Shown here: piece by piece, positions 849 to 5,191 of the stretch
How the letters are laid out: each line of letters starts with the position of its first letter
How positions within the stretch are numbered: position 1 is the stretch's first letter
From: a bacterium
GTDB taxonomy: Bacteria; CAIJMQ01; JAADFP01
Direction of reading: 5' to 3'
Assembly: GCA_027021085.1 (NCBI GenBank)
Contig: JALUVB010000300.1
Span: forward strand, 1-5,191
Length of the DNA: 5,191 nt
Notes under the pieces: model-generated
What the model was told of the DNA's origin: nothing
Seen by the model: only the letters and a program-made list of their open reading frames with translations
Databases searched by the model: none
Made by a program: the position numbers and the translations under genes

Positions 849-872
849 TAAACCAGCGTATTATTATATAAT
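844..872 (+). promoter_or_regulatory. candidate sigma70-type promoter for lysA
   Basis: A perfect TATAAT (-10) lies at 867-872. A weak -35 (TTTAAT, three of six consensus bases) sits at 844-849, giving a 17-base spacer; it overlaps the stop codon of the preceding gene. Transcription would start near 879-880 and leave a leader of about 57 bases before lysA. The -10 is in a generally AT-rich patch, so a chance match is possible, and lysA could instead be read through from the upstream gene. Confidence 0.35.
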
Positions 873-895
873 TCAACTAAAGCAGAGAAGAAAAA

Positions 896-917
896 GTAAA
901 CTAAAAGGCAGTTTTAC
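896..917 (+). other. weak AT-rich hairpin just before the lysA ribosome binding site
   Basis: GTAAACT (896-902) can pair with AGTTTTAC (910-917) around a seven-base loop, with one bulged T. The stem ends seven bases before the Shine-Dalgarno core. It is mostly A-U paired and short, so it may have no function. No T-tract follows it, so it is not a normal intrinsic terminator. Confidence 0.2.
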
Positions 918-923
918 AGAAAG

Positions 924-932
924 GGAGGTGAT
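924..932 (+). promoter_or_regulatory. near-perfect Shine-Dalgarno sequence of lysA
   Basis: GGAGGTGAT is nine contiguous bases complementary to the usual bacterial 16S rRNA 3' end (anti-SD CCUCC region). It decides the lysA start: the GGAGG core ends at 928, and seven bases later, at 936, is the in-frame codon ATC, the normal spacing for initiation. No ATG, GTG or TTG in the lysA frame lies within reach; the first is the TTG at 1047, about 120 bases further on. Confidence 0.85.
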
Positions 933-935
933 ATC

Positions 936-2201
936 ATCCATTATTTTCATTACGTTTCAGGTGAACTCTTCGGAGAAAAGGTTGCACTCAGGGAAATTGT
1001 AGATAAGGTTGGCACCCCTGTTTACATTTACAGCTCCCGCACCGTATTGAGGCATATCAACTTATACGAGGAAGCATTCCGGGGTATCCCTCACCTATTT
1101 TGCTATTCCGTCAAGGCAAATTCCAACCAGGCGCTTCTCAGGCTTATCGCACTGCAGAAGTGGGGAGTAGATGTTGTTTCTGGCGGAGAACTATATCGAA
1201 CCATAGAAGCAGGATTCCCCCATTCCCGTATTGTTTTTGCCGGTGTGGGCAAGACTGACGAAGAGATTGAAATGGGGCTAAGGCAGGATATTCTCCTCTT
1301 CAACGTAGAGAGCGAAGAGGAATTGGAAAGGATCAATACACTGGCAAAAAAACACAGGAAGCCTGCCCGGGTAGCTTTAAGAATTAACCCTGACGTAGAT
1401 GCTCATACCCACAAATTTATTACCACAGGCAAGAAGGAAACCAAGTTCGGTATATCTTACCCGGAGGTTAAAAAGATTATTGCCCGCAGGAAAAATTATT
1501 CAAAGGTAGAAATAATGGGGCTTCACCTGCACATAGGTTCCCAGATAACAGAGCTTGCACCCTACAGAAAAGCCCTGGAAAAGACCATGCATCTCCTGCA
1601 GGAACTGGAAGAGAAGAACAATTACCATCCTCAATACCTGGACCTGGGAGGAGGAATGGGCATAATTTATCAAAACGAGGAGCCTTTTACCCCACATGAA
1701 TTTGCAGAGATGGTAACCCCTTACATAGAAAACAAGGGGATAACCCTTATCCTGGAACCAGGAAGGTCCATTGTGGGGAATGCGGGCATACTTATATGCA
1801 GGGTAATTTATAAGAAAAAGGGCGTAGGAAAAAACTTCCTCATTGTGAATGCGGGAATGAATGACCTTATCCGCCCTGCCCTTTACGGTTCCTATCACCA
1901 GATTCTGCCCCTGGAGGAAAAGAAAAACAGCCAGGAAGTATACGATGTAGTGGGACCTGTATGTGAAACAGGCGATTTTTTAGCTAAGGAAAGAGCTTTA
2001 CCCTCCTTGCAGGAGGGAGAGTTTATAGCAGTTATGGGCGCAGGTGCTTACGGTTTTTCCATGTCTTCAAATTATAACTCGCGTCCGCGTGCTGCCGAAG
2101 TTTTAATTGAGGAAGACAAGTTCTACTTAATCCGGCGAAGGGAGACCTATCCTGACCTTATTCGCCTGGAAGCCATTCCACCCCATCTCCAGGGAGAGTG
2201 A
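936..2201 (+). CDS. lysA: diaminopimelate decarboxylase, apparent ATC start
   Basis: This PLP enzyme (fold type III, alanine racemase-like barrel) decarboxylates meso-diaminopimelate to L-lysine, the last step of the DAP pathway, in the cytosol. Numbered from 936, the protein has 421 residues, the usual family length. It shows the PLP lysine K60 in YSVKAN; HLHIGSQ at 196-203; the phosphate-binding DLGGGMG at 236-242; EPGRS at 274-278; the active-site CETGD at 343-347, with C343 supplied across the dimer; and Y372 in GAYGFSMSSNYNSRPR. The start is odd. From the in-frame stop at 897-899 to a TTG at 1047 there is no ATG, GTG or TTG, yet the frame encodes typical LysA N-terminal sequence (HYFHYVSGELFGE..., VGTPVYIYSS). 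The ATC at 936 sits exactly where homologues begin (M-H-Y-F-H-Y) and seven bases after the GGAGG core. Starting at 1047 would remove 37 conserved residues. Gene identity is very secure; the ATC start is inference. Confidence 0.95.
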   Translation: MHYFHYVSGELFGEKVALREIVDKVGTPVYIYSSRTVLRHINLYEEAFRGIPHLFCYSVKANSNQALLRLIALQKWGVDVVSGGELYRTIEAGFPHSRIVFAGVGKTDEEIEMGLRQDILLFNVESEEELERINTLAKKHRKPARVALRINPDVDAHTHKFITTGKKETKFGISYPEVKKIIARRKNYSKVEIMGLHLHIGSQITELAPYRKALEKTMHLLQELEEKNNYHPQYLDLGGGMGIIYQNEEPFTPHEFAEMVTPYIENKGITLILEPGRSIVGNAGILICRVIYKKKGVGKNFLIVNAGMNDLIRPALYGSYHQILPLEEKKNSQEVYDVVGPVCETGDFLAKERALPSLQEGEFIAVMGAGAYGFSMSSNYNSRPRAAEVLIEEDKFYLIRRRETYPDLIRLEAIPPHLQGE

Positions 2202-2300: not shown

Positions 2301-3113
2301 ATGAGAGTATCCCCGAATGGTATCCTGACAGTTGATGTGGAAGATATCTCCTGTGCTAATTTCCCCTTGCGGGAAGCATATCCCCCCGAGGAGAAAAACG
2401 TAGAAAAAGGGGTGAAAGAAATTCTTGCCTTGCTTGCCTCCACACAATCCAGGGCTACGTTCTTTATACTGGGCAAGACAGCAAAAAAGAACCCGGCCCT
2501 GGTTAAAGAGATAGTAAAATACAAAAATAAAGTAGCCTCGCATGGAATGACCCACCGGCTGGTGTACCGGATAGGCAGAAAAGAGTTCCGCAGAGAGATA
2601 CAGGATTCCCGTAAACTCCTGGAAGATATAAGCGGGGAGCGCGTAACAGGATACCGCGCTCCTTCCTGGTCAATTAATGAAAACTCCTTATGGGCGCTGG
2701 ATATGCTCCAGGAAGAGGGATTTTCTTATGATTCCAGTATTTTCCCGGTGAAAAATTTTCTCTACGGAATTGACAACTTTCCTCCCTATCCTCACCGCAG
2801 AGGAAAACTCTGGGAGATTCCTCCCTCCACCTTACCCTTTCCCGGGAAACGGATACCCATAGGAGGCGGATTCTACTTTAGATTCTTTCCTGCCCTCTTT
2901 ATTTCTCAGGGGTTAAAATGGTTAAGCCAACGAAAAATACCGCTGGTGTTATACTTCCACACCTGGGAAATTCTTCCTCCGGCAAAATTACCTGCCTATT
3001 CTTTACTTCACCAGTTAATTGTCACCTATAATCTCTCTTCTCTGAAAAATAAGGTAACCAGGATACTTAAAATGGGCAAATTTGTTTCCGTAGAGGAATA
3101 CCTGCATGCATAG
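2301..3113 (+). CDS. polysaccharide deacetylase, NodB domain, PEP-CTERM/XrtA-associated type
   Basis: A 270-residue carbohydrate esterase family 4-type enzyme that removes N-acetyl groups from glycans, usually with a divalent metal. The start of the NodB domain is ILTVDVED (8-15), with D12 as probable catalytic base and D15 nearby, in place of the classic TFDDG. Motif 2 is HGMTH, with metal ligands H81 and H85; motif 3 is RAPSW (119-123); the C-terminal part has WEIPPSTLPFPGKRIPIGGG (171-190) and LYFHTWE with H220. The DVED form, the EIPPSTLPFPG...GGGFYFR block and the FHTWE end match deacetylases found in exopolysaccharide clusters of PEP-CTERM/exosortase bacteria (DUF3473 type). There is no signal peptide or membrane segment, so the protein is probably cytoplasmic. 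ATG 2301 is the only sensible start: a stop lies in frame at 2292-2294 and no Shine-Dalgarno is visible. The gene overlaps the next one by eight bases. Substrate is not predictable. Confidence 0.9.
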   Translation: MRVSPNGILTVDVEDISCANFPLREAYPPEEKNVEKGVKEILALLASTQSRATFFILGKTAKKNPALVKEIVKYKNKVASHGMTHRLVYRIGRKEFRREIQDSRKLLEDISGERVTGYRAPSWSINENSLWALDMLQEEGFSYDSSIFPVKNFLYGIDNFPPYPHRRGKLWEIPPSTLPFPGKRIPIGGGFYFRFFPALFISQGLKWLSQRKIPLVLYFHTWEILPPAKLPAYSLLHQLIVTYNLSSLKNKVTRILKMGKFVSVEEYLHA

Positions 3114-4281
3114 AATAAAGGTTTTACATGTTATCACCCGCTTAATTCTCGGGGGAGCGCAGGAAAATACAATTTATACAGTCAAAGGCTTGGAGAAATT
3201 CGGTTACGAGGTAACTCTCTATACCGGCCCCCCCTTAGGGCCTGAAGGAAGCCTGGCCGGTAAGGCACGAGAACTCGGGATTCACCCGGTTATCATTCCC
3301 TCCCTGCGCAGGAATCTCCATCCCGTGCTTGATTACGCTTCCTTCAGCACGCTTCTTTCCCTTTTCAAGAAAAATAAATATCACATAGTGCATACCCACT
3401 CTTCCAAAGCGGGCATTCTGGGCAGATGGGCAGCCCGTTTCAGTAAAACTCCTGTCATTGTGCACACCATTCACGGTCTCCCTTTCTTTCCCTACCAACC
3501 TCCCTTTCTGAATTTTCTCTACCTGAACAGCGAAAGAATTACAGCCCCCATCACAGATAGAATTATCACCGTATGCGAGGCCATGAAACTCCAGGCACTC
3601 TCGGCAGGCGTGGGAAAGGAGCACCAATACGTCACTGTTTATAGCGGAATGGAGCTGGACCCCTTTCTTACTGCAACTCCCTCTTCCCGGCTCCGGGAAA
3701 AGCTGGGAATAAAGGAGGGAGAAGTGATTATCGGTAAAATTGCCCGCTTGTTCCCTCTCAAAGGACACGAGTTTGTGGTGAAAATTGCCCCGGAAGTGAT
3801 AAAAAAATTCCCCCGGGTCAAATTTCTCCTGGTAGGGGATGGTATACTAAGAGAAAAGTTAAGGGAGAAAATAAAGAAATTAAAAATGGAAGACAAGTTT
3901 ATTTTTGCAGGTTTAGTCCCCCCGGAAAAGATACCCGACTACCTCGCCTTGATGGATATTGTTATCCATACCTCGCTCAGGGAAGGATTAGCCCGGGTAA
4001 TTCCCCAGGCTATGGCAGCAGGCAAACCGGTGGTTACCTGGGACCTGGATGGCTCCGGTGAGATTGTGCGGGAGGGAGAAACCGGTTTCCTCATCCCCTC
4101 GCAGGAAGAGAAGCAACTGAAAAGAGCCATTCTCCGTCTCCTGGAGAATCGGGAGCTAAGGGAAAAGATGGGAAGAAAAGGGAAAAAACTGGTGGACCCT
4201 CTTTTTAGAAAAGAAGAAATGGCCAGAAGAATTCATGAGGTTTATCAAGAATTACTAAAAGAGAAAGGGGTAATAAAATGA
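3106..4281 (+). CDS. glycosyltransferase family 4 (GT-B fold)
   Basis: A 391-residue retaining glycosyltransferase that moves a sugar from a nucleotide donor to a lipid-linked or polysaccharide acceptor at the inner face of the membrane. The N-terminal Rossmann domain has the glycine loop VITRLILGGAQ (9-19), VHTHSSKAG near 95-103 and HTIHGLP near 120-126. The C-terminal donor-binding domain has GKIARLFPLKGHE, with R214 and K219 as probable diphosphate ligands, then LLVGDG and SLREGLARVIPQAMAAGKPVV. In the EX7E motif the first Glu is E293, but the second position is Q301, giving PQAM in place of PEAM. No transmembrane segment is evident. A GAGGAA ribosome binding site (3093-3098) lies inside the end of the deacetylase gene, whose TAG overlaps this ATG by eight bases; the TGA at 4279-4281 overlaps the next ATG. 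Donor and acceptor are unknown. Linkage to the deacetylase and SDR genes supports exopolysaccharide or cell-envelope glycan assembly. Confidence 0.93.
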   Translation: MHRIKVLHVITRLILGGAQENTIYTVKGLEKFGYEVTLYTGPPLGPEGSLAGKARELGIHPVIIPSLRRNLHPVLDYASFSTLLSLFKKNKYHIVHTHSSKAGILGRWAARFSKTPVIVHTIHGLPFFPYQPPFLNFLYLNSERITAPITDRIITVCEAMKLQALSAGVGKEHQYVTVYSGMELDPFLTATPSSRLREKLGIKEGEVIIGKIARLFPLKGHEFVVKIAPEVIKKFPRVKFLLVGDGILREKLREKIKKLKMEDKFIFAGLVPPEKIPDYLALMDIVIHTSLREGLARVIPQAMAAGKPVVTWDLDGSGEIVREGETGFLIPSQEEKQLKRAILRLLENRELREKMGRKGKKLVDPLFRKEEMARRIHEVYQELLKEKGVIK

Positions 4282-5191
4282 AGTTTCTGATTACTGGAGG
4301 AGCAGGCTTTATAGGATCATACCTTAGTGAAAAACTTTTAGCAGAAGGGCATGAAATAATAGTCCTGGATAATCTATCTACTGGTACCCAGGGAAATATA
4401 GAACACTTAGCAAAAAACCCCTCTTTTCACTTCGTGGAAGGCTCGGTTATGAACAAAGAGTTACTGAGCAAAAGTGCAGAGGGAGTGCAGGGGATATTTC
4501 ACCTGGCAGCTGCAGTAGGAGTGAAATTCGTAATGGAGAACCTGGTTACCTCCATGGAGGTTAATGTAAAAGGCACGGAGAATGTCCTGGAAACCGCACT
4601 TAAACTGGGCGGGATAAAGGTGCTTATTACCTCCAGTTCGGAAGTATACGGAAAAAGCAGTAAAAAGCGGTTCCACGAGGAGGACGATTTAATCATAGGG
4701 CCGCCCCACAAGTTTCGCTGGAGCTATGCCACGAGCAAGTTATTGGACGAATTTTTAGCCCTATCCTACCATGCAGAAAGAAATCTTCCGGTAACCATCG
4801 TGAGACTTTTTAACATATGCGGCCCCAGGCAAACCGGCAGATACGGCATGGTAATCCCCAGGTTTGTAAGGCAGGCACTTAAGGGAGAAGCCATTACAGT
4901 TTATGGAAGCGGAAAGCAGTTAAGGAGTTTTGCCCACGTTAAAGATGCCGTAGAAGGCATGGCAAAGCTTATGCTGGAACCCAATGCAGAGGGAAAGATA
5001 TTCAACCTGGGAAATCCCCGCGGAATTACCATCGAGGAACTTGCCATCAAGATAAAGGAAATGACCAAGAGCACCTCTCCCATTACTTACCTTCCCTACG
5101 AAAAGGTATACGGCCCACATTTTGAAGACCTCATGTACCGGGTGCCAGATATTAATCGTGCCAAAGCGGTTATTGGCTTTATGCCGCGTTA
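4278..5191 (+). CDS. NAD-dependent sugar-nucleotide epimerase/dehydratase (extended SDR), 3'-truncated
   Basis: The frame starts at ATG 4278, four bases (ATGA) into the end of the GT4 gene and seven bases after an AAAGGGG ribosome binding site, and stays open for 304 codons to the right edge. The Rossmann nucleotide loop is TGGAGFIG (6-13), and D31 follows beta-2 in VLDNLSTG, indicating NAD preference. HLAAAVGV follows near 81-88. The catalytic set is TSSSEVYG (118-125), Y150 and K154 (YATSK). NICGPRQTGRYG, VYGSGKQLRSFAHVKDAVEG and DINRAKAVIGF are sugar-nucleotide binding signatures of the GalE/RmlB/UDP-glucuronate decarboxylase superfamily. Glu122 after the serines occurs in decarboxylases and dehydratases as well as some epimerases, so the reaction cannot be fixed from sequence: UDP-hexose 4-epimerase, UDP-glucuronate decarboxylase or a dehydratase all remain possible. 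It probably supplies an activated sugar to the adjoining glycosyltransferase. About 5-20 C-terminal residues are probably missing. Confidence 0.9.
   Translation, partial: MKFLITGGAGFIGSYLSEKLLAEGHEIIVLDNLSTGTQGNIEHLAKNPSFHFVEGSVMNKELLSKSAEGVQGIFHLAAAVGVKFVMENLVTSMEVNVKGTENVLETALKLGGIKVLITSSSEVYGKSSKKRFHEEDDLIIGPPHKFRWSYATSKLLDEFLALSYHAERNLPVTIVRLFNICGPRQTGRYGMVIPRFVRQALKGEAITVYGSGKQLRSFAHVKDAVEGMAKLMLEPNAEGKIFNLGNPRGITIEELAIKIKEMTKSTSPITYLPYEKVYGPHFEDLMYRVPDINRAKAVIGFMPR

Follow-up and report, generated by a model that had tools for sequence, protein, structure and literature searches.

A probable AUC start codon for lysA in an uncultured bacterium, with AUH codons at the same site in its family

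The lysA locus and its upstream region

The window, i.e. the whole stretch of 5,191 nucleotides analysed here, is contig 300 of a genome of 1.93 Mb assembled in 307 contigs (G000). We compared it with G001, of the same genus, and G002, of another genus of the same family (f1; n=3 with G000), and with the four genomes G003-G006 of the other family of the class (f2; n=4), which brings the class to seven genomes. All three f1 genomes are metagenome assemblies, and their data are drafts from uncultured organisms.

The major feature of the window is lysA, coding for diaminopimelate decarboxylase, which most probably occupies positions 936..2201 of the forward strand (421 codons plus stop) and is under purifying selection. 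Its frame is open from position 900, after a TAA codon at 897-899, and reads ACT AAA AGG CAG TTT TAC AGA AAG GGA GGT GAT ATC(933) ATC(936) CAT TAT TTT CAT TAC. As described in the earlier note, this frame is devoid of ATG, GTG and TTG codons between 900 and 1046, and its first canonical codon is a TTG at 1047..1049. The program-made list of open reading frames does place the lysA start at that TTG, as had been anticipated for automatic gene callers, at the cost of 37 residues.

The translation from the ATC codon at 936..938 begins with IHYFHYVSGELFGEKVALREIVDKVGTPVYIYSSRTV, and the N-terminus predicted with this codon as the start is (M)HYFHYVSGELFGEK. In a profile search, the resulting protein scored 499.8 bits against TIGR01048 (cut-off 297.9), with residues 8-412 aligned on profile positions 6-416 of 417, which bears out the earlier proposal that conserved LysA N-terminal sequence is encoded from about position 936. 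Both the PF02784 and PF00278 domains were found, and the motifs SVKAN, which contains the PLP lysine, HIGSQ, EPGR and CETGD are all intact.

An extended Shine-Dalgarno (SD) sequence, AAGGGAGGTGAT, is located at 921..932. Its core, GGAGGTGAT at 924-932, matches the anti-SD at nine of nine bases, or over 12 bases if one G-U pair is counted, and GGAGG lies 7 nt from A936, in agreement with the well-spaced nine-base match initially reported. The 16S 3' tail used for this comparison, GGATCACCTCCTTTCT, was read in the congeneric genome G001. The computed energy of the duplex with this tail is -19.1 kcal/mol, a value equalled by only one of 287 gene starts of G001 (top 0.3%). The extended SD is kept in G001 (-18.5 kcal/mol, within the top 0.7% of its own genome) and is present as GGGGGGTGA in G002 (-16.9 kcal/mol, top 5%). 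In some predicted folds, the lysA SD is partly paired.

The leader at 849..920 separates this SD from a HypE-like gene, the frame of which stops at TAA 846-848. It appears to be weakly structured, and an Rfam search of it returned no match and no riboswitch. For the segment 860-1000, the predicted fold has a z score of +2.0, all 200 shuffled sequences folding at least as well. The 5' neighbour of lysA is the HypE-like gene, 87 nt away, in G000 and a TsaD-like gene (named by eye), 48 nt away, in G002; the AUH start of lysA persists in G000, G001 and G002 despite the changed upstream gene and spacing.

Two additional observations concern the surroundings of lysA. The gap between the HypE-like gene and lysA is ~450 nt in G001 versus 87 nt in G000, pointing to an insertion or deletion between close relatives. 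Downstream of lysA, the genes at 2301-5189 resemble polysaccharide genes of the PEP-CTERM/XrtA type; they include a deacetylase that scores 231 bits against TIGR03006, under the cut-off of 276, together with a glycosyltransferase and a sugar dehydratase/epimerase.

The start site in related genomes

The homologous start site was examined in 33 other LysA loci. Comparing this site in related genomes, as the earlier note had proposed, gave ...AAAGGGAGGTGATATT ATC CAT CAT TTT... in G001 and ...AAAAAGGGGGGTGAGAAA ATT CAT TAT TTT... in G002. The codon is ATC, ATC and ATT, respectively, in G000, G001 and G002, i.e. in three assemblies from two genera. The four f2 genomes have ATG at the homologous position, with little SD. 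In the three f1 genomes and in f2, the start codon stands directly 5' of a conserved (H/N)-(Y/H)-F motif. The LysA proteins of G001 and G002 are 95% and 69% identical, respectively, to that of the window, and the three f1 proteins group together with full support in the LysA tree, which does not resolve their placement relative to f2.

We also compared the substitution patterns on both sides of the ATC codon between G000 and G001. Codons 936-1046 differ by two, zero and seven changes at the first, second and third positions, respectively (dN 0.036, dS 0.282), and they evolve like coding sequence. Upstream of 936, the corresponding numbers are one, four and two, in a short stretch of 12 codons only. 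Past codon 37, dS is about 0.76 and dN/dS is ~0.03, and the synonymous divergence to G002 is beyond saturation. Taken from these sequence comparisons, AUC 936 is very probably the start codon of lysA.

Further AUH starts and the initiation machinery

A scan for other genes of this kind covered ~1.0 Mb of G001 and 0.73 Mb of G002 and yielded 416 non-overlapping reciprocal best pairs, 357 of which were usable. A gene was retained if a codon of the family under test was aligned between the two genomes with a strong SD in each, if conservation started at that codon and if no canonical start was shared. For the ATH family, exactly two genes were retrieved, lysA and rsfS. Ten control codon families (GTH, CTH, ACH, GAT/GAC/GAA, AAH, TTH, GCH, TCH, GGH and CTG) gave zero genes in the same 357 pairs. 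Two is a lower bound for AUH genes, since those with a chance shared in-frame canonical codon upstream escape the scan. A genome-wide switch to AUH starts was rejected on this count. At L099 (reverse-strand frame near 8869), the G001 match to a ComM-like Mg-chelatase frame of G002 begins inside the gene without a start, suggestive of a frame break that is either real or due to assembly.

The rsfS gene, coding for the ribosome silencing factor, was read throughout the class (L185 on G000:C47, L182 in G001, L181 in G002, and L183, L184, L186 and L187), and in each of the seven genomes canonical codons are absent between the SD and the first conserved residues. The frame is TAA GGA GGA AGA ATA AAA ATA GAC TTT... 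in both G000 and G001, and AAAGGAGGGAGAGAAAA ATA ATC AAT TAT in G002. In f2, the corresponding sequences are AAGAGGTGGGAAC or AAGAGGTGGGAAG followed by ATC ATT AAT TTC in G003/G004, GGAAGGAGTTAGGTAA ATC ATT AAT TTC in G005 and AAGAGGTGAAAAA ATC TTT AAT TTT in G006. The start would be AUA in f1, where the exact codon is uncertain (the first or second ATA, or ATA or ATC), and AUC in f2. The SD helices of rsfS range from -10.6 to -13.2 kcal/mol, which places them from the top tenth to about the top quarter and makes them not extreme. The predicted AUH start is class-wide for rsfS and family-wide, within f1, for lysA.

We considered infC as an additional AUH gene and rejected it as ambiguous, with a GTG shared in f1, a TTG shared in f2 and weak SDs. 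At most of the infC loci (L035-L039), AUH codons directly follow the upstream stop.

As for the initiation machinery, G000 has an IF3 gene, and the initiator tRNA of the sister genomes combines a CAU anticodon with a GGG/CCC anticodon stem. No altered anti-SD was found in the 16S tail of G001, and no altered initiator anticodon in the initiator tRNA of the sister genomes. The initiator tRNAs (L046:3936-4010 (-) and L102:7904-7978 (-)) show an apparent C1-U72 mismatch, the position being read by eye; that of Escherichia coli usually has C1-A72.

Proposed initiation of lysA and comparison with known systems

We propose that the ordinary initiator tRNA starts lysA at AUC 936, or at AUU in the sister genus (G002). 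The 12-nt SD helix, with its 7-nt spacing, would hold the 30S subunit in place and compensate for the weak pairing of the third base; the first two bases of the AUH codon would pair with fMet-tRNA and give an fMet start. The yield is expected to be well under that of AUG. La Teana and colleagues (1993, cited in PMC4611024) are said to have found that IF3 more often rejects complexes of this kind. A codon-anticodon survey is cited for such rejection as well (PMC10158994). With AUH complexes rejected more often by IF3, lysA output should be low and IF3-dependent; IF3 would repress the site and might thereby tune LysA. By analogy with infC, sigR and ccpN/cvfC1, we lean towards lysA expression being lowered and IF3-sensitive. 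The suggestion in the earlier note of low or IF3-sensitive expression, compensated by the strong SD, is plausible in this light and has close parallels in the literature.

A less probable but still weighty alternative agrees on the start codon and disputes its purpose only. The AUH start would be real and without regulatory role, the strong SD having made AUG dispensable and the codon having drifted. The variation of the third base (ATC vs ATT), the rank of the lysA SD among the strongest of the genome and the lack of a leader element all fit drift. However, AUG, GUG or UUG was never regained in two genera, although AUG is a single mutation away, and rsfS retains AUH throughout the class with merely moderately strong SDs.

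The other alternatives concern the position of the start or the integrity of the gene. Initiation at the neighbouring ATC codon, 933..935, would use the same SD, and this codon is in frame and has an AUH counterpart, ATT, in G001. Nevertheless, it is improbable, as the codon is AAA in G002, lies only 4 nt from GGAGG and is followed by the position at which the relatives have their Met; 936 is therefore favoured as the conserved site.

The N-terminus without a canonical start might also indicate that lysA is a pseudogene, or that ribosomes enter it by frameshifting after initiating in another frame. We consider both very improbable. The frame is full-length with intact motifs and the strong constraint seen past codon 37, and it is the sole TIGR01048 match in the G000 genome; as for frameshifting, ATG is absent from all frames of 849-935, and the SD is directed towards 936.

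As the alternative to a real AUC start, the earlier note had allowed for an assembly error or a change from ATG to ATC. A single base separates ATC from ATG, and the assembly is fragmented, the window being a short contig, so that an error in sequencing or assembly, or a mutation newly arisen in this one genome, had to be considered. Yet ATC and ATT occupy the same site in two other assemblies, at dS distances of about 0.8 and beyond saturation, and neither of these has a usable canonical start. In a numbering that begins at the AUH codon, G001 and G002 reach their earliest canonical codon at codons 112 and 114, respectively, past the PLP lysine of SVKAN, and that of G000, codon 37, is not conserved. 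This excludes error and recent mutation as realistic explanations, and of the two possibilities in the note, the real AUC start is the one that stands. Finally, a start at TTG 1047, giving a LysA shorter by 37 residues, is scarcely credible even though it is the earliest canonical codon of the frame, since its counterparts are CTG in G001 and CTT in G002, and the 37 preceding codons encode conserved protein sequence that aligns with the LysA family from profile position 6 onwards.

With AUC 936 as the start, the occurrence of AUH in a core biosynthetic gene, together with the class-wide case of rsfS, suggests a recurring gene-specific device paired with good SDs. It also suggests that gene callers truncate or drop genes with AUH starts; a canonical-start call in G001 or G002 would trim lysA by 112-114 residues and remove the catalytic lysine. 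It is conceivable, if rather unlikely, that a few AUH-start genes have been retained in the class, rsfS as the ancestral one and lysA as an addition in a single family, and that their output tracks IF3 or initiation capacity; start-codon identity would then co-tune ribosome hibernation with the supply of lysine and cell-wall precursors.

Few genes are known to have conserved non-NUG starts, and the best studied of them is infC. It starts with ATT in E. coli and ATC in Streptomyces (PMC5472188), and with AUA in Staphylococcus aureus, where AUH starts with extended SDs are also found in cvfC1 (AUU) and ccpN (AUA) (PMC13009471). Like infC of these three bacteria, lysA uses an AUH initiation codon; infC differs from lysA and rsfS in forming a feedback loop with its own product, IF3, and infC of the lineage described here has no clear AUH start. 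In reporters, cvfC1 and ccpN, whose starts are conserved between species, reach ~10% of the AUG output, and ccpN as much as 30% when the medium is rich (PMC13009471). They share with lysA the combination of AUH and an extended SD, both conserved across species. In contrast, the genes are different, and the output figures were measured in S. aureus.

In Streptomyces, sigR is an IF3-repressed gene that starts with GTC, or with GTT in two species, downstream of a conserved AGGAGGTG (PMC5472188). The resemblance to lysA lies in a start codon ending in C or T, a long conserved SD and an exchange of the third base (GTC/GTT there, ATC/ATT here). However, the first base of the lysA start is A rather than G, the product is an enzyme rather than a sigma factor, and IF3 repression is experimental for sigR and putative for lysA. 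An AUU start supported by mutation has also been reported for a Yersinia gene (PMC10191623). With respect to ordinary lysA genes (TIGR01048), the protein, the N-terminal motif and the position of the start are the same, but those genes start mostly with ATG, and the relatives in the class do so without an extended SD. Conserved AUH starts with extended SDs are thus already known, and it is the genes, lysA and rsfS, and the lineage that are new as far as the literature was searched.
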